Below, piece by piece: positions 5,576-49,729 of a stretch of 64,000 nt of DNA. The DNA comes from Pontiella desulfatans (GTDB lineage: Bacteria > Verrucomicrobiota > Kiritimatiellia > Kiritimatiellales > Pontiellaceae), in the NCBI RefSeq assembly GCF_900890425.1, contig NZ_CAAHFG010000002.1, positions 1,054,001-1,118,000 on the forward strand, in the 5' to 3' direction. The notes under the pieces were generated by a model that saw only the letters and a program-made list of their open reading frames with translations, was not told where the DNA came from and did not search any database. The stretch's first letter is position 1. Each line of letters opens with the position of its first letter. A program made the translations under genes and the position numbers.

Positions 5576-5601
5576 TTCTGGGTTTTTAGCCGGGGGCAAG
5601 A

Positions 5602-5626
5602 AGGGGCGTCCGCGCCCCTCTTTTTT
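5602..5626 (+). terminator. Rho-independent terminator immediately before a start codon
   Basis: Stem AGGGGCG (5602-5608) pairs perfectly with CGCCCCT (5613-5619), loop TCCG, followed by C and six Ts. It should end transcription of the PEP-CTERM gene. The ATG of the downstream sulfatase is only three bases past the T-run, with no Shine-Dalgarno sequence between, so the hairpin also masks that start region. Confidence 0.8.
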
Positions 5627-5629
5627 GAT

Positions 5630-8494: not shown

Positions 8495-8516
8495 AAACGC
8501 GTTGAAGGGTTTGGTT

Positions 8517-11500
8517 ATGAAGAGGATCATTTTGTTTTCAGCGGTTGCCCTTGCATCGTGTGCCTGGGCCGAACCGATCGTGCAGGGCGACGTAACCACC
8601 GCGCTCGGCCCCGACTTTTTTCTCGACGAGGCCGCGACCGGCGGCGGCGACCAGACCGGCGGAAATATTAATTTCAACCGTACTTGGGCAGGTGTCCAGG
8701 CCGGAACGGATGGAGCCGAAATCACGGTTTCCGGCATTGGCTGGGCCTCCAGTTCAAGCGGGACGACCGCAACCCAGGCCACCGCAACGGTCACCTATCT
8801 CGGTGCAGACGGCGTCTTTGGAAATGCCGATGATGTGTTGATCGGTTCCGTTACGGATCAACTGGTTTTTTCCGGGGCGGGGGAATATGCGTGGCGTTTC
8901 GATGAGCCGCTTACGGCTACCATCGACGGCTCGAACTCCGTCTTCCGCATTAACGTCAACACCGGAGGAACGGGGAACATTCGCTATAAGAAAGACAATA
9001 CCACCGGGGACGTGAAGATTAGCGTGGCGGGCTATTCGGCCGGACACGAAACGCATAACCTCGTGCGCTACGCCGATGTCGCCGCGAGCTACGAAGCCGA
9101 TACCGGGTTTGGGCGCTATGCGACCGATGGCGTGGTCGGTTTCGACTATGCGTGGATCGGCGATTCGGCGTTGCCGCATACGCTGGATGTTGCGTTTCCC
9201 GGGCCGGTCGAAATCGGCAGCTATCATCTGTTCAGCGGCGCGAACGGCTTCAATTATTGTTCTGCCTTCAAACTCTATTATCAAACGAATGGAAGCGCCT
9301 GGATCGAGGTTCCCGGAGCGGCGGTCTCGGGCAACACCTTGGTGGATCGTTCCGTCATCTTTCCTTCGCTGTTCGTTGAAAAGCTGCGCCTCGAAATCAC
9401 GGCGGTCGGGGGCGACGGAATTCCGCGTATTCGCGAGTGGGCGGTCTTTCCTCCGAACGATGGTGCCGGCTATCCCCTGGGAACGGGCGTTGAGCTGAGC
9501 ATGGCGAAAGGGGCATATCTCGAAGCGAGCTCGCAAGAGGCGGGTGCCTATCCGCGCCTCTCCAACGACGGCTATATCGGGACGTCATGGAAGTCGGCCG
9601 CCGTCGGGCCGCACACCAATGATTACCACCTGCGCGACGAAATCCGCATCGGCAGCGTGCACCTCTATTCGGGCGACGGCGCGGGCAGCGGAGTGGTCAC
9701 CAACTTTGCGCTCGAATATTCCAGCGACTCCGGAGCCAACTGGTATGCCGTGCCCGGCGGAACGGTGACGGGAAACACGAACGATGCACTTGTTGTCGAT
9801 TTTTCATCCGACGTTTTTGCCGACCGCATCCGCCTGGTCTGTCCGGACGTGGCACCGATCGAGATCCGCGAGTTTTTGGTTTTTCCCGAAAACCGGCAGG
9901 GGAACTATCCGCTCGGAACCGGCGCGCGTGTAGGAGGGCCGCCGGCCAACGACTATCTGCTGTATGGCGATTCGTTCCATCATCTCCGTCCATTTGGCGA
10001 AGTAAACGTGCTTCACGTGGGGCCGTCAGCCATCGAATTGAAATCGGCTTCGACGACGGATACGCGGCAGTCCTGGCAATTGCTGCTGAACGTCGGTTCC
10101 GATACCTATCGCATTTTCAATCGCGGAACTCACACATGTATCGCTGCGGCCGAAGCATCGCTGGTCGAGGGCGCCGGGGTTGTCGCGGAGGAATATTCCG
10201 CATTTCCCAGCCAGCAGTGGCGCATTTCGAATGCCGGAGACGGATTGGTTTATCTTGAGAACGTCTGGTCGGGCATGCGGATCGAGCTGGGCACCGACGG
10301 GCGGTTGCGCCAGATGGTGCGCAGCGACTCCGGCGGGCAGAAGTGGAACATCGATTTCATGCGCGCCAATCCGAAAAAAGGGTTTGGCGGCGGCTTTCAA
10401 TATCTGGAATACGGCCAGCCTGCCTGGATCTACAACTGGGGTAAGATTCCCGCTTCCAGCTGGAACGCCACGCAGTCCGATTTCATTGCCATGCAGTGGA
10501 GCACGGTGGATATGCAGGCCGACGCGTATCGTCCGGAAAAGGGCAAGCTGCCGCTCACGATGCACATTGCGGAGTGGAGTTCGTTTGCCTATCCCATGAT
10601 GCTGTTGGGATACAACGAGCCGGATTCATCGAACCAAGCCAACATGACCGTGGAGAAGGCGATCCGCCTGTGGCCGCAGTTGGAGGTTGGGAGACTGCCG
10701 CTGGCCAGCCCGGCTACGACGGGTTGGACGGACGAATGGATGGATGATTTCATGGTGGAGGCCGAAGATCTCGGCTATCGGATGGAATATCTTGCGATGC
10801 ACACCTATCCGGGGCCGAACGCCGAAAACGTAATCAATAATCTCAAAAACTTTTCGGCCGCATATGACGACCGCACCGTGTTCCTGACCGAATTCGGATT
10901 CGTCGACTGGAGCGACAATCAGAACTGGTCGGAAAACCAGCTCTACCACGAATTGCTCCAGTTGCTCTGGCTGTTGGAGGGCACCCCCGAATGTGGACGC
11001 TATGCCCTGTTCGGATTCAACGAGGACAGCGATACCTATCCGCAGCCGACCGACCCGACCGGGCGTCTTCGCCGAACCAATATCGCGGATACAAACGGCA
11101 CGCTTACCGCCATCGGTGAACTGTGGATGGGCTGGAACGGCGAGCTGCAGCCGCGCGAACGGCAGTCGTACATCCTGCACAACTATGCGTTCCACATGCG
11201 GCCGCTGAATGACGGTTCGAGCACAGTGGGTGCGGCGAACATCCGCACCGGCGACGAAACCGTTCAGGTCTATCTCGAGCCGACCGGCGATGGATATTTC
11301 TATTTGGTTTCGCCGGTCGATCGCCGTCGGCTCAGTCAGGTCGGTTCCACGGCGGTGGAATGGGCAACCGCCGACACCGCATCCACCTCCGCCCAATGGT
11401 CGTGGTCGAGCGTCGGCGACGGCTGGCAGCTGATCACCAACCGCGGCTCCGGCAAAAACCTGCGTTATACCGATGCGGACGGCGTTCACTTGGGTACGGC

Positions 11501-29663: not shown

Positions 29664-30596
29664 CTAATGGGCGTTGATGCCGTGGATCATGAAGACGGCG
29701 TGTTCGAGTGTGCGGAGGATTTCAAAAACATATTCCTTCACGGCCTTGACGCTGCCGGGCAGGGTGTAGACCTGGGTTTGGCCAATGGTGCCGGCCACCG
29801 AGCGGCTGAGCAGGGCCGACGGAATCCTGTCGCCATATTTCACCCGGATGAATTCCATCACGCCCGGCAGCTCTTTTTCCAGCAGGGGGGCAACCACGTC
29901 GGGGGTGATGTCGCGCGGACCAAGGCCGGTGCCGCCGGTCGTGAAGATGATATCGGCTCCCCCCGCGACGGCTTCGCCGAGGATTGCCTTCAGCGCATCG
30001 GCATCGTCCGGAATGAGCGAGACCGAGCATTCGAGGTTCCAGGGCTTGCCGTCAAAGTGCGCTTCGAGATCGGTCTTGATCTGCGGCCCGCTCAGGTCTT
30101 CGTATTCCCCGTTGTAGGCGCGGTCGCTCAGCGTGATGATGCGGACGTCGAGGGTGTGTGGGATGTGCTCCATCGCGTCGCCGGCCTTGGCCGAGCCGCC
30201 GTTGACGACGCGGCAAAAGAGGCCTTCCTTGGGCATGACGCATTTGCCGACTTCCATAAAAATGGCGCAGCCATCGCCATGGCACTTCTTGCCGATCTGC
30301 GTGACTTCCAGTTCCGCCGCGCCAATCTTGAACCGGTCGAGCAGGTTGACGTGGGTCAGGTCGATGCCGCGCGTGGTAATGTTTTCCGCGAACTCGCCCG
30401 GGGAAAAGGTGCGGTCGGTTTCGGCCGCCGCAAACTGGTCGATGCTTTCCTTCGCCAGCAGGCTGACCTGCCGGTGCCAGCTCCCGGCATGCGCATCCCC
30501 GGCAATGCCGTGTTCATTGAACGTGATCGAGGGAACCGGCCTCTTCACCGTCCCTTTTTCCTTGGAAACATTAACCGATACGATTTCGATGCCCAT
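29664..30596 (-). CDS. MOSC-MogA/MoaB fusion protein (molybdenum cofactor)
   Basis: 310 residues from ATG at 30596, set by AGAAGGAG 7 bases upstream. Residues ~1-145 are a MOSC domain (HGIAGDAHAG; EFAENITT; IGKKCHGDGCAIF with the conserved Cys region). Residues ~150-310 are a MogA/MoaB molybdopterin adenylyltransferase (ITLSDRAYNGEYEDLSGP; FTTGGTGLGPRDITPD; RSVAGTIGQTQVYTLPGS). MogA adenylates molybdopterin before MoeA inserts molybdate; MOSC domains bind sulfur-carrying Cys or the cofactor. The joined order is known in other bacteria. It heads away from the XylR-type gene (convergent) and leads in a Mo cluster with moaC, moaA, moeA and a ModE-like HTH, all on this strand. Confidence 0.9.
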   Translation of the reverse strand: MGIEIVSVNVSKEKGTVKRPVPSITFNEHGIAGDAHAGSWHRQVSLLAKESIDQFAAAETDRTFSPGEFAENITTRGIDLTHVNLLDRFKIGAAELEVTQIGKKCHGDGCAIFMEVGKCVMPKEGLFCRVVNGGSAKAGDAMEHIPHTLDVRIITLSDRAYNGEYEDLSGPQIKTDLEAHFDGKPWNLECSVSLIPDDADALKAILGEAVAGGADIIFTTGGTGLGPRDITPDVVAPLLEKELPGVMEFIRVKYGDRIPSALLSRSVAGTIGQTQVYTLPGSVKAVKEYVFEILRTLEHAVFMIHGINAH

Positions 30597-30629
30597 TAGC
30601 GCACTCCTTCTCTTTCGTGAGGGGGTAGC

Positions 30630-30704
30630 CACAAAGAGGCACAAGAAGCACGAGGACTCCGAAGGATCTGGTCTTTGTGTTTTTTGTGCCTCTTCGTGGC
30701 CATT
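30630..30704. repeat. Imperfect inverted repeat in moaC/MOSC-mog spacer
   Basis: Left arm AGCCACAAAGAGGCACAAGA and right arm TTTTGTGCCTCTTCGTGGCC pair over about 20 bases with few mismatches. Same ACCACRAA-like style as the repeats at 15806, 25252 and 33817. The right arm ends at the 3' end of moaC. Confidence 0.7.
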
Positions 30705-31161
30705 ATTCCGTTACCGTCTCTTTCTTTTTTTCGATCAGGGTGATGCGGCCGAGCTCCATGTTTTTGTCGACGGCCTTGCACATGTCGTAGATGGTGAGCA
30801 GGGCGACGCTGACCGCCGTCAGGGCTTCCATCTCGACGCCGGTCTGTCCGGTGCACTTGACTTCGCTGACGACCTCCGCGCCGTCTTCCTTCAGCTCGGC
30901 CTTCACTTGCACCTTGGAGAGGAGCAGGGTGTGGCAGAGTGGAATCAGGTCGAAGGTTTTCTTGGCGGCCTGCGTGCCGGCCAACTCGGCGGTGATCAGG
31001 ACGTTGCCTTTTTTCAGGGCGTTATTGCCGATCAGTTCGAGGGTGGCCGGCTCGAGTTTAATGAAGCCCTTGGCCTTCGCCATGCGGTGCGAGATCGCCT
31101 TGTCGCCAACATCGACCATGGCCGGGCGGTTGTCGTTTCCAATGTGGGTGAGTTCGTTCAT
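30703..31161 (-). CDS. moaC: MoaC, cyclic pyranopterin monophosphate synthase
   Basis: 152 residues, close to the family's usual ~160. Motifs: MVDVGDKAISHRMAKAKGFIKL at the N-terminus, PLCHTLLLSKV (active-site His region) and GQTGVEMEALTAVSVALLTIYDMCKAVDK near the C-terminus. MoaC, with MoaA, turns GTP into cyclic pyranopterin monophosphate, the first stage of molybdenum cofactor synthesis. An AGGAA ribosome site precedes the ATG on the minus strand. It lies between the MOSC-MogA gene and moaA, separated from each by spacers holding inverted repeats. MoaD and MoaE for the following step are not in the window. Confidence 0.96.
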   Translation of the reverse strand: MNELTHIGNDNRPAMVDVGDKAISHRMAKAKGFIKLEPATLELIGNNALKKGNVLITAELAGTQAAKKTFDLIPLCHTLLLSKVQVKAELKEDGAEVVSEVKCTGQTGVEMEALTAVSVALLTIYDMCKAVDKNMELGRITLIEKKKETVTE

Positions 31162-31205
31162 GGGTGGTTATTCCTCGTGTTTTGCTTTTTATCCTGTTGT
31201 GTTTG

Positions 31206-31282
31206 GCAAAATCATTAAATGCAAAATGTTGGCTACGATATGGCGCCGTGCATGTTTCTCATTTTGCATTTAATGATTTTGC
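31206..31282. repeat. Perfect 23-base inverted repeat
   Basis: The 23-base arms at 31206-31228 and 31260-31282 are exact reverse complements (left arm begins GCAAAATCATTAAATGC), separated by 31 bases that include TATGGCGCCG. It lies between moaC and moaA and contains no gene. An exact, long, AT-rich pair is more like a MITE-type or transposon-derived element than a terminator. Confidence 0.92.
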
Positions 31283-31377
31283 TTAACTCCTCTGCTGCAA
31301 GGCCGATAGTGATGTCGCAATAATGCTGCTGGTTGCATGGGCTGAATGATCCTATCCTCTTCTCTATTCCTGCTGGA

Positions 31378-32178
31378 TTAACCTCCAATGCTGTAGAATT
31401 GGTTGGTTTCGCTTTTATGGCCGGATGCGGGTTTGTTGCCGACGGCGGCGCGCAGGGCCGGTTCGATGCCGAGTTCCTTGACGGAATAGTGAAGGTCGCT
31501 GAAGAGGCAGGGAAAGAGGTCGCCCTTGCTGGTGAGGCGCAGGCGGTTGCAGGTTGAGCAGTGGCCTCCGTCGCCGCCTTCCACCGTCCAGAACGATCCG
31601 TTGCGGATGTCCATGCAACGGATGTAGCGTACCTCGCATCCCTGCTCCCTGCCGTAGGTTGCAACGGCCTGCGCATCCGGTTCATCGGCGCTTTGGGTAA
31701 TCACGCAGTTGAGTTTGATGGTTTTGAACCCGGCGGCCTTGGCGGCTTCAAGCCCGCGCAACACGTCGCGAAGGTCGCCGCCTCGCGTGGTCTGCCGGTA
31801 ACGGTCGGGGTCGAGGGTGTCGAGGCTGACGTTGAGGCGGTGCAACCCGGCGTCCTTCAGCGGCTGCGCGAAGGATTCGAGCAGGATGCCGTTGGTCGTC
31901 ATGGCCAGGTCGTTGATGCCTTCGATGCTGGAAAGCATTTCCACCAGATGGACCATGTTGCGGCGCACCAGCGGCTCGCCGCCGGTCAGGCGCACCTTGT
32001 CCACACCCAGCCCAACGGCCACCGCCGCAATGTCGCGGATCTCCTCGAACGAAAGGATTTCCGGGTGGGGGATTTGCTCGATGCCTTCTTCCGGCATGCA
32101 ATACCTGCAACGCAGGTTGCAGAGGTCGGTCACGGAAATCCGCAGGTAGTTGATGCGCCTGTTAAAACAATCGAACAT
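31378..32178 (-). CDS. moaA: MoaA, GTP 3',8-cyclase (unusually short form)
   Basis: 266 residues from ATG 32178 (GAGGAAG upstream). The N-terminal radical SAM cluster motif CNLRCRYC, GGEPL SAM site and TTNG strand are present. The C-terminal second cluster CSTCNRLRLTSKGDLFPC keeps Cx2Cx13C, and the protein ends in the GG tail used by MoaA. But the stretch between the RYIRCMDI strand and CSTC is only ~20 residues, where usual MoaA (~320-340 residues) has about 60 more. The first codons overlap the end of moeA by 17 bases. Function as GTP 3',8-cyclase is probable as all cysteine ligands remain; the missing part normally forms a helical stretch before the C-terminal cluster. Confidence 0.9.
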   Translation of the reverse strand: MFDCFNRRINYLRISVTDLCNLRCRYCMPEEGIEQIPHPEILSFEEIRDIAAVAVGLGVDKVRLTGGEPLVRRNMVHLVEMLSSIEGINDLAMTTNGILLESFAQPLKDAGLHRLNVSLDTLDPDRYRQTTRGGDLRDVLRGLEAAKAAGFKTIKLNCVITQSADEPDAQAVATYGREQGCEVRYIRCMDIRNGSFWTVEGGDGGHCSTCNRLRLTSKGDLFPCLFSDLHYSVKELGIEPALRAAVGNKPASGHKSETNQFYSIGG

Positions 32179-33337
32179 CGACTTCCTCGTCTTGCTTGAA
32201 GCTCGAACCCTCGGAGGGGCAGAGCAGGAATCCATCCGCACTGCACAGGGCGTTGATGTGGGCGGAGCCGTGGTATTCGATCGGCTCAACCCGGTCGGGC
32301 GCGGTGAAGCGGATGGGGATGATGGCGCTGCGCTTGGCCGGTTTGAGCCGCAGGTCGCGGTTGAGCTTGGCGCACACGTGCCGCGGCCTGAAGGCATGCC
32401 CCATCATGTTGAACAGGAAGGGTTTCACGAGCGCCTCGAACTGCATGTAGGTCGCAACCGGGTTGCCGGGCAGCGCAAAGACGCGCACCTGTTCGCCAAC
32501 GCCAAACGTCGAAGGGCGTCCCGGCTTGATCGCCACGCTGGTGAAGAGCAGTTCGATTCCGTTGTTCTTCAGGATGCCGGGGACGAGGTCGTAGTCGCCC
32601 ATCGAAACGCCGCCCGAAAGCATGACGACATCGTTTTCCGCCATGGCTTTCCCAATGGCGGCAGCGAGCGCCTCCTCGTCGTCAACGGCGATGCCCATGT
32701 TGGTGGCCAAGCAACCCATCTGCTCCACCTGGGCGGCCAGCTGCCAGCCGTTGCTGTTGCGGATCTTGGCGCCGGTGGCTTTTTCGGACGGTTCGACCAG
32801 CTCGCTGCCGGTCGAGATGATGCCGACGCGCGGTTGCTTCGCGACGCGCGGTTGCGTGCAACCCACCGTGGCGAGCACGGCGATGTGCTGCGGCTGGATA
32901 ACGGCGCCCTTGGCGAGCACCTCGTCGCCGGCCCGGATGTCTTCGCCCCGGGTGCAAATGTTGGTTTTGGTTTCCTCTTCCGTGTAGCGGATCGTTGTGG
33001 CGGAAACCTCCACCGTATCCTCCACCATGATCACGCAGTCGGCACCCTGCGGCACCATTGAGCCGGTCATGATCTTGGCGCATTCGTTTGCGCCGATGGT
33101 TTTGGTGGGGGCGACGCCCGCGGGGAGCTCCTCGACCACCGTCAGTTCGTTCCGGATATCCGCGCGGCGGCAGGCATAGCCATCCATCGCCGACTTGTTG
33201 AACGGCGGCATGTCGATGTCCGACAAAACAGGCTCGGCCAGCACCCGGCCCAGGCTTTGTTCGAGCGGCACGGTTTCGCTGCCGAGGGCCAGGCAGTTAT
33301 CCATCACAATGGCATAGGCTTCGTCGAAGGTAATCAT
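32162..33337 (-). CDS. moeA: MoeA, molybdopterin molybdenumtransferase
   Basis: 391 residues, normal family length. N-terminal SLGRVLAEPVLSDIDMPPFNKSAMDGYA, the MTGSMVPQGADCVIMVED region, the MogA-like domain with GIISTGSEL, GGVSMGDYD and ALPGNPVATYMQFEALV, and the C-terminal beta domain with NALCSADGFLLCP. It inserts molybdate (or tungstate) into adenylated molybdopterin made by MogA, whose gene lies three genes on in the same direction. AAGGATGG precedes the ATG. The 3' end overlaps moaA by 17 bases, and the gap to the ModE-like gene upstream is 21 bases, so the genes form one operon. Confidence 0.96.
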   Translation of the reverse strand: MITFDEAYAIVMDNCLALGSETVPLEQSLGRVLAEPVLSDIDMPPFNKSAMDGYACRRADIRNELTVVEELPAGVAPTKTIGANECAKIMTGSMVPQGADCVIMVEDTVEVSATTIRYTEEETKTNICTRGEDIRAGDEVLAKGAVIQPQHIAVLATVGCTQPRVAKQPRVGIISTGSELVEPSEKATGAKIRNSNGWQLAAQVEQMGCLATNMGIAVDDEEALAAAIGKAMAENDVVMLSGGVSMGDYDLVPGILKNNGIELLFTSVAIKPGRPSTFGVGEQVRVFALPGNPVATYMQFEALVKPFLFNMMGHAFRPRHVCAKLNRDLRLKPAKRSAIIPIRFTAPDRVEPIEYHGSAHINALCSADGFLLCPSEGSSFKQDEEVDVRLF

Positions 33338-33358
33338 GGTTCCATCCTTGTGGTTCGG

Positions 33359-33718
33359 TTAGGCGGTTGGGTTTGCGGCCTCGTTGACGAGTCGTTCGAA
33401 CGAGGCCTCGGCATAAAGCTTCACGTCCGCCTTGAAGCGGTTGAAGAGCTTGAGCAGGCGCGCGCCTTCGGGCGTCAGCACGGTTTTTCCGCCGCGGGAA
33501 CCGCCCCGGCTTTTGACGATGAGGGTGTGGCCCAGGTTGCTTTCGGCTTTTTTCAGATCGCCCCACGCCTTGCGGTAGCTCATGCCCAGCTGCTCCGCCG
33601 CCGCCGAAAGGGAGCCGAGCTCGTCGATGGCCTCCAGCAACCGGCAGCGCCCCCCGCCAATCACATTCTCCCCATCCTCCGTCGAGAGCCATAGCTTCAT
33701 GTTCGGTACTAGTTCCAT
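33359..33718 (-). CDS. ModE-type single-domain HTH regulator
   Basis: 119 residues. It corresponds to the N-terminal winged-helix domain of ModE/LysR type: RLLEAIDELGSLSAAAEQLGMSYRKAWGDLKKAE, then SRGGSRGGKTVLTPEGARLL, the typical wing. The molybdate-binding TOBE domains of full ModE are absent. It is the first gene of the Mo cofactor operon, so it may regulate that operon or a molybdate transporter elsewhere. Start at 33718 follows GGGG on the minus strand; Met at 33700 is an alternative. How it would sense molybdate without TOBE domains is unknown. Confidence 0.85.
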   Translation of the reverse strand: MELVPNMKLWLSTEDGENVIGGGRCRLLEAIDELGSLSAAAEQLGMSYRKAWGDLKKAESNLGHTLIVKSRGGSRGGKTVLTPEGARLLKLFNRFKADVKLYAEASFERLVNEAANPTA

Positions 33719-34891: not shown

Positions 34892-36466
34892 ATGAAGTGT
34901 TTTAATGTTTTATTGGTGCTGGCCATTACCTCGATCTCGTCTTGGGCGGTGGAGCCGGCGTGGAAGCTGGAAAAGTGGCCGGAGGGCCGCACGTTGGTCT
35001 GGGCGAATCCGGGCGAGGGCGGCGAGTTCGGCGTGGCCGAAAACTGGAAGGAAAACGGCAAGGGCGCAAAGACGGCGCCGGATCGCGAAACCGATATCCT
35101 GCTGCCGAAAGCGTCGAAACCCTACATCGTCAAGGGCGGGCGCGTTGACCAGGTGCGCCATGTGGTCATCGAAGAGAACGGTGAGCTCCAGGGCAAGCAC
35201 CGCAACGAACTCGAAATCTGGGGCAACGTCGATGTCAAACCCGGCGGCGACATTCACTGGATTTCCATCCGCGGCGACCGCGACACCTACTTCAACATCG
35301 AAGACGCGGTCTTTCCCGGCAAGGGCCGCACCTACCGCCACACCTCCAAACGCCTGCCGAAGGAAAAGGCCTGCAATAGCCAGATTTCGCACAAGTTCCA
35401 GATCGCGAAGATCGGCACCAAGTCGGTCGAGTTTGTCGGAAACGTCGGCGTGAGCGACGAGGTGATGCTCCAGCACGGCAAGTGCATCATCAGCGGCGAC
35501 TTCCGCTTCAGCGGCGCCACCAACAAGGGCGCGTTCGAGGTCTACGACGGCGGCATCCTCGAGATCCAGTCCGGCGGACGCATCGCCCCGTTCATCAACA
35601 CCAATGCCAAAGGGGTCTACAACATCAACATCTACCGCAACGGCGTGCTCCAGGCGGGATCGCCCGAACGCCCGCTGACCGAGGATGCGTATGTCTGCCT
35701 TGGTTTTGCCGAAAACGACAAGCCGGGCCGCTCGGGACTCTATTCCGCGCTCGGTTCCATGATCCGCGTCTATTCCGCCAACCCGAAGCAGGCGCGCCTG
35801 GTGTTCACCTCCATCACCTCGATCGACGGCTTTGTCGATGGCCAGGGCCGCAAGGTCGGCGACCCGAACGAAGACGCGAAGGGCAACAAGGGCGTCGCCA
35901 TGCAGCTTGCGGGCGATGTGCAGCTCGACGGCGCGCACTTCGACTACATCATGTCGGACGGCATCGGCCTGTTCGACAAGGATATGGCCAACGACTGGAA
36001 AAACATCACCTTCGGCAAGCACTGCGCCTCGTCGAACGCCAAGAACCTGATCACCAAAATGGACGCCGATCCCAACTCCTACTACCACGGGCGCGGCGAC
36101 CAGAAGTCGGAATACGGCCTGACGCTCAAGGCGATGACCTCCATGAGCAAGCACCTCGGGGAATACGAGCCCTTCCAGCTTCAGACGCTGCCGGAAAACA
36201 CCAAGCTGCGCAAGGTCGGCTCCGGCGGAAACCAGATCGAAACGCCCGTCGCCGTCATTTTCAACGAGCCCGTGAAGGTCGAGATCAAGACCAAGGTGCC
36301 CGGCGCCAAGATCCGCTACACGACCGATGGCTCCGAACCCACCGGAAGTTCACCCGCCTACTCCGGCGCGATCAAGCTCACCAAGACCACCAGGCTGACG
36401 GTCAAGGCCTACAAGAACGGCGTCGGCTTCAGCCCCACCTACACCACCACCTACGTCATCCAATAA
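34892..36466 (+). CDS. Secreted beta-helix/G8-like protein with C-terminal chitobiase-type domain
   Basis: 524 residues from ATG 34892 (AAGGGA upstream), beginning with a signal peptide ([19 protein letters not shown]). Residues ~30-110 ([21 protein letters not shown]-type strand; [24 protein letters not shown]) resemble the G8-like opening of right-handed beta-helix proteins, followed by repeated short beta turns to ~residue 430 ([26 protein letters not shown]). The last ~65 residues match the chitobiase/beta-hexosaminidase C-terminal immunoglobulin-like domain ([31 protein letters not shown]). It stands 61 bases before the FG-GAP gene and may be the first member of that operon. No catalytic motif is evident. 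A carbohydrate-binding or scaffold role is inference. Confidence 0.75.
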
Positions 36467-36527
36467 TGCGGATGCGACGGAGAGATGGCAGAATTATTCT
36501 GTCCATTCAACCCAGAGAGCGAGTTTC

Positions 36528-38498
36528 ATGATTCTTTCCAAACCGAGAAACCTCCTGTGCGGCGTGGCCACACTTGTTTTGGCAGGCGCGGCGCAGGCCG
36601 TCATTAACCCGGCGTTGCAACCGGACGTCTATTTCCAGAAGTATGACAACATCGTCGTGCTGGAAATCGGCGCGATCGATCCCGCCGCCGCCAAGCTCAG
36701 CTGCTCCGTCGTCAAGGCGATCAAGGGCGACTACCAGTCCGGCACCACCATCGATATCGTCTTTGCGGGCGCACTCGCCGGGCAGGTGGCCGAGCGCGCC
36801 AACGACGGCTCGCTGGCGAAGGGCGACCGCTTCCCCGTTTTTGCGGGTAAGCCGAGCCGCCGCAAGTCCAACCGCCAGATCCGCATGTATGCCGACGAAT
36901 TCCTCGTTGGCGAAGTGCAGACGGAAAACCTGTTCCAGATCGGCATCAGCGAAGAGGTCGAAACCGATTCCGAGGGGAACAAGGTCAACACGCTCGCCGG
37001 CATCTTTTGCGGCATGACCTCGGAGCTGATCAAGATGCTCGAAGACATGGCCGCCGACCGCGACTACTATCCGCGAAAGGCCTACGTCAAATTCCTGCCC
37101 GACCTGCTGGTCGACGAGCTGCCCAAGTCGGTCGAGGGCGTAGCGATGTATGACCTCAACGGCGACGGCATGGAGGATCTCGTGGCCTGCTCCCCGGCGG
37201 GCGACCGCATCTATTTCCAGGTCGAGCCGATGAAGTTTTCCAACGTCACCGAAAAGCTCGGCATCACGTCGGCCAGCGTTAGCTGCTCCGTGGCGGATGT
37301 CGATTGCGACGGGCTCGCCGACCTGATGCTCGGCACAACGATCTATAAAGGCAAGTTCGACAAAACCTACACGCTCGAAAAGACCGATTGGCTCAAGGCC
37401 GAAGGCGACGGTTTCAAGAGCGCGTCGTTCGTTGAGCTTAACGGCGACGGGCTTCCGGACGTGGTTGCCAGCTTCGCTGGAACGGGACTGCGCGCCTTCC
37501 TTAATTCCGGCAAAGGATCATTTGCATCGGCCGAACTGGCGTTGCCATCAGAAGGCAACGGCTACTTTGTTCCCGGCGACTGGAACGGCGACAGCCGCAC
37601 CGACCTTTTCTATTCGCATGCCAATGGTTTCCTGATGGAGCAGGGCACGGACGGGACGTTCAAGCCTGCCGCGCACAACATCGAGTTTTCGTTCCGCACG
37701 GGCGTCGATGAATATGGCCAGACGGGCGCGGGCGTCTTTATGCCGACCTACCTGCCGAACAGCATGGATCTGGTGGTGCCGATCGAAAAGGATTGGCTGA
37801 TCATCTCCAACGAAGAAGGTGTGCTCACCGATATCACCGTTTGGGGCAACGAGATCAGCGAGGGTTCCGACTACCACCTCGCCACCGTCGCCGCCGACCT
37901 CAACGTCGATGGCTACATGGACATCTACACTGTCTGCGACCAGCAGAAGGAAAACCGATATATTATCAACCGCGGCTACGGCTCCTACATGCACGCCAAG
38001 GTGCACGTCGATGAAAAGCCGCTCTTCAAAGGCCCGGCGCACGGCTCCGGCGGCCGCTCGCTGGCGGTTGGCGACATTAACGACGACGGCGCACCCGACA
38101 TTTTGATCGGCAACGAAAAGGGCCAGCTCTTCCTGATCGTCAACGACACGCTCTCCATGCGCCAGCCGGGCGAGCTGTTGACGAAGGACGAAAAGCGCCT
38201 GCTCAACGTGCGCCTCTGTTCGGTGCGCGTGCTCGGGCCGAAGGGCGTCGTCGGTGCCAAGGTGCGCCTGCTCGATGCCAACGGCGCCGTCGTTGCGCGC
38301 AAGGATTTGGGCGGCAACGTCGCCACCGGATGCAGCAGTCCCGACACGGTCTGCTTCGCGGTGCGCACGCCGGGGAACTATAAACTGAACGTAGAATATG
38401 CCGATGGGCACAAGCGCGAGCTCGACGTCGATCTGACGACCGAAAAACGTGTTTCCATCGTAGCCGAACGCGGGGATTCCGAAGATGCTGGTTGGTGA
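36528..38498 (+). CDS. Secreted FG-GAP/VCBS repeat protein
   Basis: 656 residues, signal peptide [15 protein letters not shown]. Residues ~25-165 hold a beta-rich domain of unknown kind. From ~205 on, FG-GAP/VCBS units appear with calcium-loop style motifs: [78 protein letters not shown], suggesting a seven-bladed beta-propeller. The last ~110 residues form a small beta domain like the tail of ASPIC/UnbV proteins. The stop overlaps the start of the next gene by 14 bases, so they are translationally coupled. Export to the periplasm or surface is expected; the partner is probably the propeller protein encoded next. Ligand unknown. Confidence 0.85.
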
Positions 38499-40080
38499 TT
38501 TAGCGGTTGTACCGATTTTTGTTAATGCGGGGGCGGCGATCCTCCCGGCGCTCGCCGCCGGAATCGCGACCTTTTTCGCGCTGCTCTTCAAACCTAAGGC
38601 GCTACTGAAGGCCTGCAAGGAAAAGCCGTTGGTTCCGGTATCGGTCGTTTTGATCGGCGTCGGCATCTGGGCGGCGGTTCGTTTCTGGCCCGCCCACGGC
38701 GGCGAAACGCACGAAGAACCGAAGCGCACCGCCAGCGCCGGATCGGGCACGGTCTACATCGACTGGACGGAGATCGCCCTGGCGCGCATCAAGGCCAAGC
38801 AACGCGGTGAAGTCAAAAAAGTTGAGCAGCCCAAGGTTGCCGTGGAAGCGGTCGATGCCCCCGTAATCTTCCGGGGCGGCAACCATCGCCTCGGCGCCGT
38901 CGGCCCGGCTCCCTCCGGCGAGTTGTCGCTGGCCTGGGACTATTTCCCGAGTTGGGTCGATGACGACGGCACGGTCGAAACGGTCGACTCCGCCATGATC
39001 CTTTCGAGCCCGGCCGTGCACGGCGACCGCGTCTATGCCGCCTCCTGCGAACTCGATCCGCCCGACTCCTACGGCATCGTCTTCTGCGTCGATGCCAACA
39101 CGGGCGAAACCATCTGGTCGATCGACCAGATCGACGGCGAAGAGATCAAGGGCTTCTTCAGCTCGCCCGCCGTCACCGCCGACGGCAAATATGTTTTGAT
39201 CGGGCAGGGGCTGCACCCGGACAGCGAATGCCAGCTTATCTGCATCGACACCGAAAGCGGCAAGGTGCATTGGACGGTCGAGAGCGACCTGCATATCGAA
39301 AGCTCGCCCGCCATTGAAAACGGCGTGGCCTATGTCGGCTGCGGCGCGATCGAAGATCCCGCCACGCACAAGCCGACCAGCCACACGGGTTACGTGATCG
39401 CCGTGCGCATTGCCGACGGCAAGGAACTTTGGCGGCGCGACGTGGTCGACCCCGAAAGCTCGCCCATCGTCAAGGACGGCGTCGTCTACATCGGCAGCGG
39501 CTTTAACGGCAAGGCCGTCGTTGCGCTAAATGCCGAGAACGGTGAAGAGCTGTGGAAAACCGAAACGCCGTATCCCATCACGGGTGCGGTCACGCTGATC
39601 AACGGCACCGTCATTGTCGGTGGCGGCAACGGCGACTTTGTTTTCCGCGATCCGAATCCGGCAGGCGTTGTTATGGCGCTCGACGCCAAGACGGGCGACG
39701 TCAAGTGGACGGCCGACATGCCCGATGCCGTGCTCGGCGCAGTCGCCGCTGGAAAATATTTCGTCGCGCCCGTTGCGGCGGGCAAGGTCGTTGCGCTCGA
39801 TCCCGCATCCGGCGAGCAGGTTTGGTCGACCGCCATCAGCGGGCAGGCCCCCGTGTTGGCGGGCGCCGCCGTGACCGACCAATTCGTCTACGCCGTCAGC
39901 CACGATGGCTACATGGCCAAGCTTTCCATCGACGATGGTTCCATTCTGGAAAAAACCTACATCAACGAAAAGACGCGTCCCGGCGAGCAGGGGCTTTCCA
40001 TCAGCTCGCCGATGATCGGCGGCGGCCGCATCTATGTCGGCAGTGAAACCGGAGGGCTGCGCTGCTATGAAGGATCGTAA
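38485..40080 (+). CDS. Membrane-anchored PQQ-type beta-propeller protein
   Basis: 531 residues. Two hydrophobic helices occupy ~residues 13-36 and 48-66 ([38 protein letters not shown]), then a ~50-residue linker. From ~130 to the end, PQQ/BamB-like blades repeat: [95 protein letters not shown]. There are no obvious PQQ cofactor ligands, so a binding or scaffold role is more likely than alcohol dehydrogenase. It overlaps the preceding FG-GAP gene by 14 bases and is overlapped by the next gene by 14 bases. The N-terminus probably holds the propeller at the outer face of the inner membrane. Confidence 0.85.
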
Positions 40081-43000
40081 TATCCTGCCGCTCGCGGAGG
40101 CGCTCGACGTTTCACTCGTTGGTGGCAAGGCGATCAACTTGGCCAAGCTGATGCAGGCCGGGCTTCCGGTGCCCGGCGGGTTTGTGGTGACCACCACCAC
40201 CTTCCGCGCATCCGATGGAAAGGTGGGCAAGGAGCTGGCCGATGAAATCCGCGAGGCGCTGACGCCGCTCAAGGGCAAGCGCGTTGCGGCGCGGTCGTCG
40301 GCGACCGCCGAAGACATGGCGGGGGCTTCGATGGCCGGGCAGTACGACACCTTCCTGAATCTCGAAACCGAAGAGCAGATTATCGAAGCCGTCGAAAAGT
40401 GCTGGCAAAGCATTCGGTCGAGCCGCACCGAGGCCTATCTTGCGGAACACGGCATCGCGCTCGACGACGTGGCCATGGCCGTTGTGGTGCAGCAGCAGGT
40501 TACGGCCGACGTTGCGGGCGTGCTGTTCACAGCCGACCCGCGCACGGGAACGCGCGATAATGTGTTGATCGAAGCAACGTGGGGATTGGGCGAGGCACTC
40601 GTCTCCGGCGACGTGCAGCCCGACGTTATCCGCGTGGATGGCGACAAGGTGCTTTCCTACGACGTTGCCGACAAGAAACACGCGATCTATCCCGGCGGCG
40701 ACGGCATCGAAGACGTGCCGGAAGAGCAGCGCAAGCGCGCCTGCCTCGACTATGGTCTAATCATGCGCCTGACCGATCTCGGCGCAAAGGCCGCCGCGCA
40801 TTTTGGCGGGCCGCAGGATGTCGAGTGGGCCATCGAAAAGGGCGAGGTGCTGATGCTGCAGGCGCGGCCGATCACCACACTGGCCGAGACCGATGCCTAC
40901 AACAAACTGCTTTCCGAAACGAAGACCTACTTGAGCCAGCGCGTCGAAGACGGCGGCGGCCCGTGGGTGCGCCATAACCTCGGCGAAACCCTGCCGCATC
41001 CGACGCCGTTGACGTGGTCGCTGGTTTCGCACTTTATGTCCGGCAGTGGCGGCTTCGGCAAAATGCACGAGGAGCTCGGCTTTGCGCCGGGCGAGAAGGT
41101 GAAGGCGCGTAGCTTCCTTGACCGTATCGGCGGCGAGGTCTACATGGACTGCTCGCTGATGACCGAAATGTTTTCGGCCAACTATCCCTTTGCCTTCGAT
41201 CCGGAGCTGCTGCGCTCCGATCCGGACGCCGCGCAAAATCCACCGACCGTGCCGAACGGCGGGCTGAAAAAAATCGGTGATGCCGCCAAGCTGGCCAAAT
41301 CAGCCGCCGCAAAGATCGATGCGCTTTCGTTGAACCTCGACCAACGTTTCGACGAGGAATATGTGCCGGAGCTGATGGGCTGGAGCCTGGCGCAGGAATC
41401 GGTTGAACTGCAAAGCCTCGGCGATGCGGAGTTGATTGAGCTTTGGAAGGAGCAGTCGGCCAAGGTGCTCGACGATTTTGGCGGAATGGCATTCCTTCCG
41501 AGCATGGTTGAAGCGGTGGCGGTCGAAGAACTGCGGCAGCTACTGAACGAACATGTGTGGGACGAGGATCCCGACGAACTGGTTTCGATGCTTTCGGTCG
41601 GCGTTCGCCCCGACTGCACCATGGCCGCCAACATGGCGCTGGCCGATTTGGATCTGGACGAGTGGCTTGCACAATACGGCCACCGCGCCCCGGCGGAGTT
41701 CGACCTCGCGTCGCCGCGCTGGAACGAGCGCCCGGACGGCGTCCGCAAGATGGCGGAGCAGGTGGCCGGAACCGATCTCGATACGTTGCATCACGAACGA
41801 TTGGAAGCGGCCGATAAATGCCTGACCAAGCTGTATGCCGAACTCGATGCGGATACGATGGAAAAGGTGGAGGCGGCGTCGAATCGGGTGCGCCGCTATA
41901 TCCGCTTCCGCGAAGACGGCAAGTTTTATCTGATGCGCGCCTACTCGGTGCTGCGCACCACCGCGCTCGAATTCGGCCGCCGCCTGACGGTGGACGACGA
42001 CATCTTTTTCATGGAGCCGGAGGAAATCTTCGCGGCGCTCGAAAGCGGCTTTGTTCCGGTGGATCGGATTGCCGACCGCAAGTTGGCATACGCGATTGAG
42101 CCGCGCTTGCAGACGCCGCATGTGATCGAGGCGGGCGATGTTGCATCGTTGGGCAACGCCGTGGTGCGTGCCGATGGCCCGGCGCTGGCGGCGCACGGCG
42201 TTTCGTGCGGTTCGGCGGTCGGCCCGGCCTCGATTGTGCTTAGTCCCGATCAATGCGATGGCTTTGAAAAGGGCTCGATCCTGGTTTGCCCCTCCACCGA
42301 TCCATCGTGGACGCCGCTGTTCGCCAAGGCGGGTGGGCTTGTGCTGGAGCGCGGCGGTTCGCTGTCGCACGGCGCGGTGGTTGCTCGCGAGATGGGCTTG
42401 CCCGCTGTCGTGCTCGACGGCGCCACCGAACTGTTGGCGCAGGGCGAGACGATTACGGTCGATGCCAACGCAGGAATGGTCTATCGCGAAGGGGCGGACG
42501 CCGAGGTGGAGGATGCGCGCATTCCGCGCAGCGAAATTCCGCCGCCCGCGAGTGCCAAGGAAGCCAGCGCCAACCGACTCGGTTTGACGATGGCGATTGT
42601 TTGGGGGGTGCTGTTGGGGCTGGTGTTTCTGCTGCCGCCGAACCTGCTGCACGATCCGTTCATGGGCCTGCTCGATACGCTGCTGTGGCCACTGGTGCGC
42701 GGCTTCGGCATGATTGGCGCCGTGGCTATTGTGGCCGGGTTTTTCGGTCTGATTCCGATTCTCGGCCAGCGCTATTTGACCGACAACGGTCGGTTGTTCG
42801 AAGCCAAGCGCCGTTCGGGCCTGCTGCGCAAGGCGGCGAACAAACTGCCCGCCGAAAGCGCCCGCCGAAAAACCATGGAACAACTGGCCGCGCCCGTAAC
42901 GACGCGCATTTTGAAAGCATCGATGGTTCCGCTGGCGTTGATTCTTGGGCCGATGATCATGGTCTTCATGTGGTTCCCGATGCGGGTTGATCCGGCATCG

Positions 43001-43591
43001 TGGAACGCCGAGCCGGGACGCATGGTCAGCATTGTGGCCGAGATCGATGGGGAATGCCTGGCACCCGTCTCGCTGGCCGTGCCTTCGCCGTTGGAACTGG
43101 ATTCGGACGCGGCGCAAACGCTGCCGCCGATCCGCACCGAGCTCGAAGAACTGCGCGCCGAGTGGAAGGATGCGAGCGACATGTCCGACCTTCCGTGGGA
43201 AGTGCAGTCGGCCGCCGACCATACGCGCATGACGATGCTCGCCAGCCTCAACGCATTCTTGAGAGAGGGCGTTCCTCCGCAAAAGATGACGTGGCTCATC
43301 AGCGTGCCCGAAAGCGCCGAAGGCAAACATCCGGTCAAGCTGAAGGTGGGGGACGAAACCGTATCCTCGTTTGATTTGGTGTTTGGCCGGAACGTTCCGC
43401 CCGCTCCGGCGGCGTTCGCCGAGGTATCGGAGCAGGTGGTGTCGATCACGATCAACTATCCGCGCGCGCTGCAGCAGGCGAGCTTTTTCAAGCTACCTGG
43501 CACCAAGAAGGATCTCGGTTGGCTCGGCATCTACCTGCTCGCCTACCTGCCGACCATGTTCGTCGCCAAGTTCGCGCTGCGCGTGCCGTAG
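40067..43591 (+). CDS. PEP synthase-like ATP-grasp/phosphohistidine protein fused to a DUF106-like membrane region
   Basis: 1174 residues from ATG 40067 (GGAGGG upstream), overlapping the previous gene by 14 bases. Residues ~1-300 match the pyruvate-phosphate-dikinase N-terminal ATP-binding part ([57 protein letters not shown]). A helical middle (~310-720) recalls the rifampicin-phosphotransferase class. The swivelling domain has [22 protein letters not shown] with phosphohistidine H768. The C-terminal PEP-binding barrel of true PEP synthase is missing. From ~836, membrane helices (two at ~836-905, then a basic coiled stretch, one at ~950-975, last at ~1150-1172) are laid out like DUF106/YidC-Oxa1-type proteins, with a ~150-residue beta domain before the last. 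A phosphotransfer reaction tied to a membrane process is inferred; substrate unknown. Confidence 0.75.
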
Positions 43592-46879: not shown

Positions 46880-49729
46880 ATGTGGGACGCGTGTAGAAGC
46901 CATGTTGGGGTAGTTCGGGGTCTTGTGCTGATGGCAATGGTGCTTTTGGCGGCGCAAAGCCGTGGAAAGGGCGTAACCCAGAGCCAGCTTTCCAGACTCG
47001 ATCCGAGTACGGAATCGACCAGTGTTTTGCTGGAAACCTCGAAGGAACTGCTGAAGAACGACCAGCTTGAGGATGCGTTGCCGTTTCTCGAGGAAGTCCT
47101 GGTTCGGCTGGAAGGCGACGAGGAGAAGAAGGCGCGCCAGACGCTGGCCTTCACCCTCTACCAGCTGGCCTACTGCCAGATGAAGCTGGGTGAATATGTT
47201 TCCGGCGCACGCAACTTTGTCCGCTTTTCCGATGAATTCCCCGAAGATCCGCAGCAGGAGTCGGCCCGGGTGATGGCGGCGCAGTGCTTGACCATGGTCC
47301 AGCAGTGGCCGACGGTGGAGGAGCAGTCGGCGATTGTTTTGCAGAATGCGCGGCTTGCCGAAGACCTGAAGATTCCGGCGACCCAGCTATTGGCGGAAGC
47401 GCGCTACCAGCAGGAAAAATGGGCCGACGCAACGCGTCCGTTGATTTCCCTTTTCCGGATATCCAAGGAGGAAACGGTTCGTGCGGGGGCGGCGGTGATG
47501 CTGGTGACCTGCTATGTGCGCCTCGACGATTTCAGCAACCTGTTCACGTTTTTGCCGCATTGCGACGAGGCGGCGCGCCACGATGTGGGCCTGAACGTGG
47601 CCCTGCTGGAGGCGGGTGATTCGCACTATAATAAGGGGGAGTACCAAAAGGCGCTCCTGCTCTATCGCCTGGTGCTCACCAAGAAGGAGCTGGTGCAGCA
47701 CTATGAAAACCGCCTGCGCACCGTGAAGGGCCAGATGAAGCCGTTCGTGGCCGGGGGCTCGCAAACCCTTTCCGATTTCAAGGAAATGCAGCGCAAGCAG
47801 CAGCAGCTCTTCGATCGGCTCAAGAAACATTACCAGGTCATTACCAATTTCCAGGACTACGACATGGACGTGATGCTGCGGACGGCGCAGTGCTACAACG
47901 ACCTGGAGCGCAACTGGCCTGCGCATGCGATCTATCTGCGCATCTACGACGAAAACCCCACCAACTCCCTGGCCGACCAGGCGCGTTTCTCGGCGTTTGC
48001 CGTGATGCTCGACGAACGCGAATGGGCGCTGGCCACCGCCGAGGGCTATGATTATGTGAAAACAAGCCCCGATGGCGAGTTCGTCGATGATGTGACGCTG
48101 AACCTGATGCAAGTGCATATGCAGCAGGAGCAGTTCGACCTCGCCTACGACATCGGCAAAAAAGGACTGGAGCTTTCCCCCGACCACAAGCATATCGACC
48201 AGGTGAAGTATTTGATGGGCTACATCCGCTTCATGCAATTCGACTATGCCGTGGCACTGGAAAACTTCCGCGAAATCCTCAAGCGCTGGCCAGACAGCCG
48301 CTACTACGAGTCGGCGGAATACTGGCAGTCGATGTCGCTCCTGTTCCTGGGCAGCTTTGCGGAGGCGGCGACGGCGTTCGAGGCCTATCTGACCAACCCG
48401 AAGTATAGCCCGCGCATCTACGAGGAGGACTCCTCCTATCGCCTGGGCATTGCCCAATACGGCGCGGAGCAGTATGAGGCGTCGGAGGGAACCCTCCGGG
48501 CGTTTGTGGACAAGTATCCCGAAAGCCACCTGCTGTCGGAGGCCTTTGCCATGCTCGGCGACCTGCGCGGTGCCGAGGGCGACATGGATGTCGCCCTCGA
48601 TTTCTACGCCATGGCGCGCGAAAAGGCGCTGAATATGTCGCAGGTGAACTATCCGGTGTTCCAGTCCGCCGATGTGCTCACCCGCCTGAGGCGCTACGAC
48701 GAGGTGGTTGCGTTGATGGCCGGCTATATCGGTGAGTGGGGCGAACAGGGCGATTTCGCGAACGCGGCGAACTGGCAGGGCAAGGCGTATAAGGCAAAGG
48801 ATGAATATCCGCGTGCGCTGAACAGCTATTTTGAGCTCGTGAACCGCTTTGGCAACAATGCCAACCTCGGCGGTGTCGACCTGATTTTGAATGAGGTGAT
48901 TTCCGACTATAAGAGCGAAGAGTGGTCGTCCTACCGGGAAATCATCAAGGATCGGCTCGATGTGCATCTGAAGGCGGCCTCCGACAGCAACCAGCGGACG
49001 CTGGAGCTGCAGTATCAGACGGTGTTCGCCACCATTCTTTCCGGGCCCGAGCGCGAGCCGTTTGTTGACTCGGTCGTCCAGGCAAAGAATGTGCCTGCAT
49101 CCGGCGCGAACACGCTGGTGCTGATTGCGCGGGAAGGCGTGAAACGCGAGGATTGGGAGACTGTGCACGAGGCGAGCGCCCGGTTCATATCGAACTTCCA
49201 GGTTTCGAACAACATGCTCTACATCATGCTGGCCAACCTGGATGCGCTAATCAAGGAAGGCAGCTATGACGACGCGCTCGACCTTTCCGAAGAGATTTTG
49301 ATGAAGTTCGGCTACAGCAAGTCGGTGGGCTGGGCGCGTAAGCGCCGCGGCGATGTCTACCGTCTTCAGGGCAACTATGACCGTGCGCTGGAAGCCTATA
49401 AAGAGGTCTTGGGGATCCGCGAATGGCGCGGCGAGCTGACACCCGAAGCGCTCTATTGCTCGGGGGTCTGCAAAATGGAATTGGGAGAGACGGCGGAGGC
49501 GTTTGCCTATTTCCAGCGAATCTACGTTTTGTATGGGGACTATGTTGAGTGGGTTGCGCCGGCCTATGCCAAGAGCATCCTGTGTCTGGAAATGCTGGGT
49601 GGCCACGAGCAGGATATCCTTAATACCTACAGGGAAATGCTCGCGAACGAGGCGGTTGCGGCCACGCCCGAGGGCATCGAGGCCGCCCGGAAATTTGCGG
49701 AGCTTGCCCCTGCGGAGGAAGTGCTATGA
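46880..49729 (+). CDS. Exported TPR-repeat protein of an ExbB/ExbD operon
   Basis: 949 residues. The N-terminus gives a signal-anchor (VVRGLVLMAMVLLAAQS); ATG 46880 has no clear ribosome site and 46931/46937 are alternatives. The rest is TPR-like helical hairpins throughout, such as ALPFLEEVLVRLEG, YQLAYCQMKLGEY, ALLLYRLVLTKKE, AVALENFREILKRWPDSRYYESAEYW, YRLGIAQYGAEQYEASEGTL and GDVYRLQGNYDRALEAYKEVLG. No enzyme motif is seen. It overlaps the next TPR gene by ATGA and heads an operon with ExbB- and two ExbD-like genes, so it is probably a periplasmic scaffold driven by, or passing proteins to, that motor. Confidence 0.85.
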   Translation: MWDACRSHVGVVRGLVLMAMVLLAAQSRGKGVTQSQLSRLDPSTESTSVLLETSKELLKNDQLEDALPFLEEVLVRLEGDEEKKARQTLAFTLYQLAYCQMKLGEYVSGARNFVRFSDEFPEDPQQESARVMAAQCLTMVQQWPTVEEQSAIVLQNARLAEDLKIPATQLLAEARYQQEKWADATRPLISLFRISKEETVRAGAAVMLVTCYVRLDDFSNLFTFLPHCDEAARHDVGLNVALLEAGDSHYNKGEYQKALLLYRLVLTKKELVQHYENRLRTVKGQMKPFVAGGSQTLSDFKEMQRKQQQLFDRLKKHYQVITNFQDYDMDVMLRTAQCYNDLERNWPAHAIYLRIYDENPTNSLADQARFSAFAVMLDEREWALATAEGYDYVKTSPDGEFVDDVTLNLMQVHMQQEQFDLAYDIGKKGLELSPDHKHIDQVKYLMGYIRFMQFDYAVALENFREILKRWPDSRYYESAEYWQSMSLLFLGSFAEAATAFEAYLTNPKYSPRIYEEDSSYRLGIAQYGAEQYEASEGTLRAFVDKYPESHLLSEAFAMLGDLRGAEGDMDVALDFYAMAREKALNMSQVNYPVFQSADVLTRLRRYDEVVALMAGYIGEWGEQGDFANAANWQGKAYKAKDEYPRALNSYFELVNRFGNNANLGGVDLILNEVISDYKSEEWSSYREIIKDRLDVHLKAASDSNQRTLELQYQTVFATILSGPEREPFVDSVVQAKNVPASGANTLVLIAREGVKREDWETVHEASARFISNFQVSNNMLYIMLANLDALIKEGSYDDALDLSEEILMKFGYSKSVGWARKRRGDVYRLQGNYDRALEAYKEVLGIREWRGELTPEALYCSGVCKMELGETAEAFAYFQRIYVLYGDYVEWVAPAYAKSILCLEMLGGHEQDILNTYREMLANEAVAATPEGIEAARKFAELAPAEEVL

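Follow-up and report, generated by a model that had tools for sequence, protein, structure and literature searches.

Gene content and layout of the locus

A group of four genes, p1 to p4, lies within a stretch of 64,000 nucleotides of the genome of Pontiella desulfatans (assembly GCF_900890425.1, contig NZ_CAAHFG010000002.1, positions 1,054,001 to 1,118,000 of the forward strand), and this whole stretch is referred to as the window. The genome comprises 8,658,305 bases in six contigs, and a scan of named genomes gave only two relatives as its closest, Pontiellaceae bacterium B12227 and one Kiritimatiellales metagenome-assembled genome. Two of the four products are propeller proteins, and the last joins a dikinase to a membrane domain. 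The features, by position in the window, are:

34892-36466, + strand: p1, a putative secreted protein with a signal-peptide-like N-terminus and a C-terminal CHB_HEX_C_1 / Fn3-associated domain
36528-38498, + strand: p2, a secreted FG-GAP propeller protein (Pfam PF13517, FG-GAP_3, 1.9e-30)
38485-40080, + strand: p3, two N-terminal transmembrane (TM) helices, then an eight-bladed BamB-type PQQ-like propeller (PF13360, PQQ_2, 6.3e-39)
40067-43591, + strand: p4, the dikinase and membrane domain fusion
40067-40921, + strand: p4 residues 1-285, ATP-grasp (PPDK_N) domain
40922-42262, + strand: p4 residues 286-732, substrate-binding domain
42263-42475, + strand: p4 residues 733-803, swivel phosphohistidine domain (PEP-utilizers) with the catalytic H768
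42536-43588, + strand: p4 residues 824-1174, membrane domain of the DUF106/EMC3/TMCO1 branch of the Oxa1 superfamily

The coordinates agree with the preliminary description of this DNA, in which the four genes were read as one unit, with overlaps of 14 bases between p2 and p3 and between p3 and p4 and a gap of 61 bases between p1 and p2. The overlap of p3 and p4 takes the ATG at 40067 as the start codon of p4, an alternative frame opening at 40034 is longer but is unsupported by relatives. The 14-base overlap of p2 and p3 is available in the window and in four Pontiellaceae-type relatives, and the p3-p4 genes overlap by 14 bases in three loci, by 8 in one and by 4 in five more distant loci, with a 237-base gap in one. 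As this junction differs among relatives the identical size of both overlaps in the window is incidental, it is the close coupling of p2, p3 and p4 that is the rule among relatives.

The dikinase part of p4

The ATP-grasp and phosphohistidine module that had been described at the start of p4, with H768 and no PEP-binding barrel, is present, and it is only the label of phosphoenolpyruvate (PEP) synthase that has to be given up. Pfam matches PPDK_N (PF01326, 1.8e-74) and PEP-utilizers (PF00391, 3e-23) in p4 and finds no PEP-binding barrel, with the order of ATP-grasp, substrate domain and phosphohistidine swivel being the arrangement of small-molecule dikinases of the rifampin phosphotransferase (RPH) type. 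The best solved relative, by phmmer and by profile, is the Listeria rifampin phosphotransferase RPH-Lm (5FBS), in which the catalytic residues are Lys22, Arg117, Thr136, Arg666, Glu667, Lys670 and His825 (PMC4844700). All of these have counterparts in p4, K21, R76 and T95 in the ATP-grasp domain, R615-E616-x2-K619 in the substrate domain and H768 in place of the catalytic His825. R615, E616 and H768 are kept in 21 of the 21 active-type kinases of the system described below, K619 is conservatively replaced by Arg in two of them, and within the fused family only the member from genome G148 has failed to retain the catalytic residues. The domain order and the full set of catalytic residues are shared with RPH-Lm (5FBS/5HV1), RedH/PigC, PpsAB and HpeHI, and judged by its sequence the p4 enzyme is an RPH-type small-molecule dikinase and not a PEP synthase.

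Whilst p4 and RPH are collinear over the ATP-grasp domain, and again over the latter half of the substrate domain and on through the swivel domain, residues 285-517 of p4 were unalignable with RPH in either search. The RPH counterpart of this region bears most of the drug contacts, thus the lack of alignment suggests that the substrate differs from that of RPH. In its place p4 has a motif of its own, W300..H303-N-L-x-E-T-L..P-T-P..W317..F-M-x-G-x-G-G-x-G331 (W300, H303, N304, E307, T308, L309, P312-P314, W317, F323, M324, G326, G328, G329 and G331), which is found in at least 20 of the 21 kinases, fused and unfused, and is mostly missing from a generic dikinase of G148. It is likely that p4 is an active dikinase with a conserved substrate of its own. 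A fused or coupled DUF106 membrane protein and the propeller partners set it further apart from the RPH family.

The membrane domain of p4

In its predicted topology the membrane part of p4 begins with an extra TM helix, followed by a TM helix, a cytosolic helical hairpin, a TM helix, a periplasmic immunoglobulin (Ig)-like domain and a last TM helix. When a profile made from an alignment of 11 homologues (A1) was compared with the PDB there was exactly one confident natural match, the archaeal DUF106 protein MJ0480 (5.3e-10), with the two being collinear in both halves, over the N-terminal TM helix and hairpin and over the last TM helix (GWLGxYxL). Both share the TTDQ/LTDN..R start of the hairpin and a WxxxY last helix. 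The AlphaFold2 model of the C-terminal domain (pLDDT 88.6) has helices at 39-81, 84-102, 109-150 and 329-348 in the numbering of the model, and its best match by VIA is chain 8 of 7tut, 177 residues in length, with a Z of 8.2 over 137 residues (model 52-351). The complex in 7tut is the multipass translocon, which includes TMCO1 (PMC9630114), and from chain length and complex we infer that chain 8 is TMCO1. A Z of 8.2 is borderline by itself, it is convincing beside the profile match to MJ0480. Foldseek with the whole C-terminal model gave no significant match, its output being swamped by the Ig-like domain, and it was the VIA re-alignment alone that placed the translocon chain first.

The domain is distinct from the common bacterial form of the superfamily. 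The same genome has one separate and ordinary YidC (G000:C3:581701, PF02096 1.2e-66), both belong to the Oxa1 superfamily, yet profile A1 detects neither this YidC nor any solved YidC. The DUF106 model PF01956 matches 3 of the 11 homologues weakly and the window protein is under the Pfam cut-off, and as searches of relatives with PF01956 mostly return YidC, Pfam alone cannot place the domain, it is the MJ0480 match that does. In common with MJ0480, EMC3 and TMCO1 the bacterial families have a TM helix, a cytosolic hairpin with a D(Q/N) start, a TM helix and a last TM helix of the WxxxY type, to which p4 adds the first TM helix (in the fused form), the Ig-like periplasmic domain of about 170 residues and the dikinase. 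The DUF106/Oxa1-type C-terminus of the preliminary description is therefore upheld by both profile and structure, with no match to an unrelated family, and the C-terminal 350 or so residues of p4 do form an Oxa1-superfamily domain of the archaeal type (DUF106).

The propeller partners and p1

The propellers that had been read in p2 and p3, FG-GAP and PQQ-like, are matched by the Pfam models FG-GAP_3 and PQQ_2. The TM helices of p3 lie at about residues 8-34 and 49-66, and the Lys-rich loop between them, on a direct reading, would make the loop cytosolic and the propeller periplasmic; by the positive-inside charge the kinase of p4 would be in the cytosol and the propeller of p3 outside. In the AlphaFold2 model (pLDDT 78.6, the propeller mostly >85) two TM helices and a short helix precede eight blades. 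The best Foldseek match is BamB (E 1.5e-20), VIA gives a Z of 43 to the designed eight-blade Cake8 and 38 to BamB, and tetrathionate hydrolase is a further fold match. Thus p3 is an eight-bladed PQQ-type propeller, predicted to be periplasmic, as are BamB, the PQQ-like propellers and the N-terminal propeller of EMC1, although unlike the lipoprotein BamB it is held by two conserved N-terminal TM helices and no BAM genes are adjacent. Homology of p3 to EMC1 was considered and dropped, PF25293 scores 20.7 bits against a cut-off of 34, the BamB/PQQ models score much higher, and p3 is BamB-like in both score and fold.

Right behind its signal peptide p2 has a conserved N-terminal domain beginning INPxLxP / INPxFTPxxL. 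For p1 the Pfam matches (PF13290 9.3e-16, PF13287 5.8e-13) cover the C-terminal domain only and did not confirm the beta-helix that the preliminary description had assigned to this protein. The gene is found in the same order only in G016, G027, G024 and G317, it is an accessory of close relatives outside the conserved core.

Fused and split forms in the Verrucomicrobiota

Among 388 genomes of the phylum (Verrucomicrobiota) the fused protein was found in 10, and also in G013 through a search of nearest relatives. Two of the genomes with a fused protein gave extra weak matches, these are stand-alone DUF106 proteins of 274-275 amino acids whose genes lie directly 3' of an unfused dikinase, which is itself 3' of a membrane-anchored PQQ propeller. 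A second search with the stand-alone DUF106 as query revealed the unfused trio in further genomes. Fused and unfused loci number 11 each, 22 altogether, and come from 18 genomes, of which G059, G092 and G377 have both types. A PQQ propeller stands beside the dikinase homologue in all 22 loci, a count that takes in the truncated kinase homologue of G148 and one PQQ fragment at a contig end. None of the 22 loci lacks DUF106, which is part of the kinase protein in 11 and is encoded directly behind the kinase gene in the other 11, and homologues of the FG-GAP protein p2 occur in 12 of the 22, of both types.

The stand-alone family is of the same kind as the fused domain. Its profile also has MJ0480 as the best natural PDB match (2.6e-5), the two families are related in a profile comparison (probability 97.9), and two stand-alone members exceed the PF01956 cut-off of 27.1 (30.1 and 27.6), a cut-off that some YidC exceed too. 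The kinase tree unites all fused sequences in a single clade (support 0.998), which is most simply read as one fusion event. The system is real and conserved, with a single fusion event. The gene order that was looked for in related genomes is there, and the idea of a phosphotransfer enzyme bound to a membrane insertase-like part, with propeller partners, is strengthened by the unfused versions, with only p1 losing its place as a core member.

Two matches in other contexts were not counted, a weak one in G119 and a second DUF106-like gene in G411 (L074, G411:C299:14500-24679, 9411-10178, + strand). The latter is a different stand-alone gene, on a direct reading it follows two genes like those of the alkaline phosphatase superfamily (nucleotide pyrophosphatase-type, 5024-7189 and 6958-9207), and it is a second, unrelated context of bacterial DUF106. 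In G059 and G092 a calcineurin-like phosphoesterase of about 670 amino acids is encoded upstream of p3 (L016 13613-15637, - strand; L017 5947-7956, + strand), possibly a counter-enzyme to the kinase. GH123-like glycoside hydrolases lie ahead of the unfused system in G056 and G306 (L071 1181-3874, + strand; L072 17248-19899, - strand). Together with the metallophosphoesterase they hint at glycan or phosphate chemistry, and are too few to decide.

Probable horizontal movement of the cassette

The PrfA of the window is 87, 84, 84 and 86% identical to those of G016, G027, G024 and G013, 54-55% to those of its class-mates G059 and G092, and 47% to that of G317. The four cassette proteins of G317 are 58-68% identical to those of the window, p3 and p4 of G059 and G092 only 42-47%. 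As the similarity of the G317 cassette exceeds that of PrfA, and the system is found in only one of the six genomes of the order to which G317 belongs, the cassette appears to move as a unit, with the complete set of four genes, p1 included, seemingly transferred horizontally once. Adjoining PrfA in the window is a gene for a 949-residue TPR-repeat protein (46880-49729, + strand; TPR_6 5.5e-20, with YfiO-like stretches). Just upstream of p1 is an ordinary-looking molybdenum cofactor cluster (29664-33718, - strand), which on a direct reading includes MogA/MOSC, MoaC, MoaA, MoeA and a ModE-like gene.

Possible function of the system

It is tentatively proposed, with a confidence that falls a little short of even, that p2, p3 and p4 form an inner-membrane complex that uses ATP to phosphorylate a hydroxyl compound associated with the membrane, with the propellers on the periplasmic side. 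The cytosolic part of p4 would place the beta-phosphate of ATP on H768, from which it would pass to a hydroxyl of the substrate held in the middle domain, as it does in phenylphosphate synthase and in RPH. The DUF106-type domain fused to it would keep this phosphotransfer at the bilayer, its Oxa1-like polar groove probably taking in or passing on an amphipathic substrate, such as a lipid-linked compound or an envelope building block. The propeller of p3, anchored by its two TM helices, probably packs against the membrane domain of p4, and together with the secreted FG-GAP protein it may scaffold the reception or assembly of the product.

Several observations weigh against this proposal. No substrate, gene for substrate synthesis or lipid link was found for the system, and FG-GAP is absent from 10 of the 22 loci, some of which are interrupted by contig ends. 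The main evidence opposing a purely enzymatic role is G148, where a p4 homologue of 821 residues adjoins an intact p3 (L025, G148:C209, 2736-6934, + strand). The frame of this homologue is intact, but ATP-grasp domain, swivel domain and R-E-x2-K motif have all been lost from it, so that G148 is left with the middle domain, DUF106 and the propeller. Phosphotransfer is therefore dispensable in at least one lineage, either the middle domain and DUF106 are useful without it or the phosphate comes from elsewhere. G148 has a second dikinase (L080) that might compensate for the truncation as a split kinase, though it is without the system motif and the short contig on which it lies shows neither PQQ nor DUF106 beside it.

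The same losses in G148 speak for the main rival reading, in which the system is primarily a machine for protein insertion or envelope assembly, with DUF106 inserting or translocating specific clients, the BamB-like propeller serving as a periplasmic scaffold and the dikinase being a regulator or modifying a client. The membrane part of p4 does belong to the Oxa1 superfamily and shares the signatures of MJ0480, p3 has the fold of BamB, which is a scaffold for assembly, and with a separate YidC present a specialised insertase is possible. The eukaryotic EMC unites EMC1 and EMC3 in one complex. Against this, an intact and highly conserved dikinase in the 21 other loci is left unexplained, p3 falls below the EMC1 cut-off, Sec genes are not linked, and no EMC6-like partner was noticed in the gene neighbourhood, where the TM pair of p3 is a candidate substitute for an EMC6/GET2-like partner. 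Such a machine is considered rather doubtful. A bolder version, that this is a bacterial sister of EMC3/TMCO1, distinct from YidC, with BamB-like and FG-GAP propellers outside and a dikinase inside whose ATP-driven phosphotransfer would power or gate the insertion of an envelope component or its translocation across the inner membrane, is considered unlikely.

It is similarly improbable that p4 is a small-molecule dikinase by which a phenolic or similar lipophilic compound is taken up, catabolised or detoxified, with the DUF106-like part a mere anchor at the site of entry. The sparse and horizontally moving distribution suits an optional metabolic trait, the nearest solved relatives phosphorylate rifampicin, and related two-part dikinases that phosphorylate phenols (PMC12167813) also count for it. 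However, no catabolic genes recur near the loci, where it is envelope propellers that are constantly present, and the membrane part is more than a simple anchor, in that it has retained the signatures of its family and has a large domain, itself conserved, on the periplasmic side. The narrower suggestion of a rifamycin-inactivating phosphotransferase conferring antibiotic resistance fits the collinearity of p4 with RPH-Lm in all but the substrate arm, but is strongly disfavoured and regarded as barely credible, as the NCBIfam model RIF_Ptrans_rph scores 361.6 bits against a cut-off of 999, the rifampicin-contacting RPH residues 336-479 are without counterpart in the alignments, and p4 has both a membrane fusion and propeller partners. 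A role in anti-phage defence was considered and dropped, as PADLOC gave no match for p1 to p4 or for the stand-alone DUF106.

Significance

The component families of the system are known, it is the combination that is new, and the system is undescribed. A literature search on DUF106 in Planctomycetes and on the gene combination found no description, an absence that is no proof of novelty. In the literature the DUF106/EMC3/TMCO1 branch of the Oxa1 superfamily is assigned to archaea and eukaryotes, and YidC is the form ascribed to bacteria (PMC8675477, PMC8887752). The bacteria considered here carry this branch besides YidC, in stand-alone and fused forms, with the same dikinase and propeller next to it in every case, and the existence of both fused and split versions is a Rosetta stone argument that the parts associate physically. 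If the proposed complex is correct, phosphohistidine dikinase chemistry would be coupled to a membrane insertase fold, a coupling for which to our knowledge there is no known system, and it would offer a new setting in which to study Oxa1-type folds beyond protein insertion.

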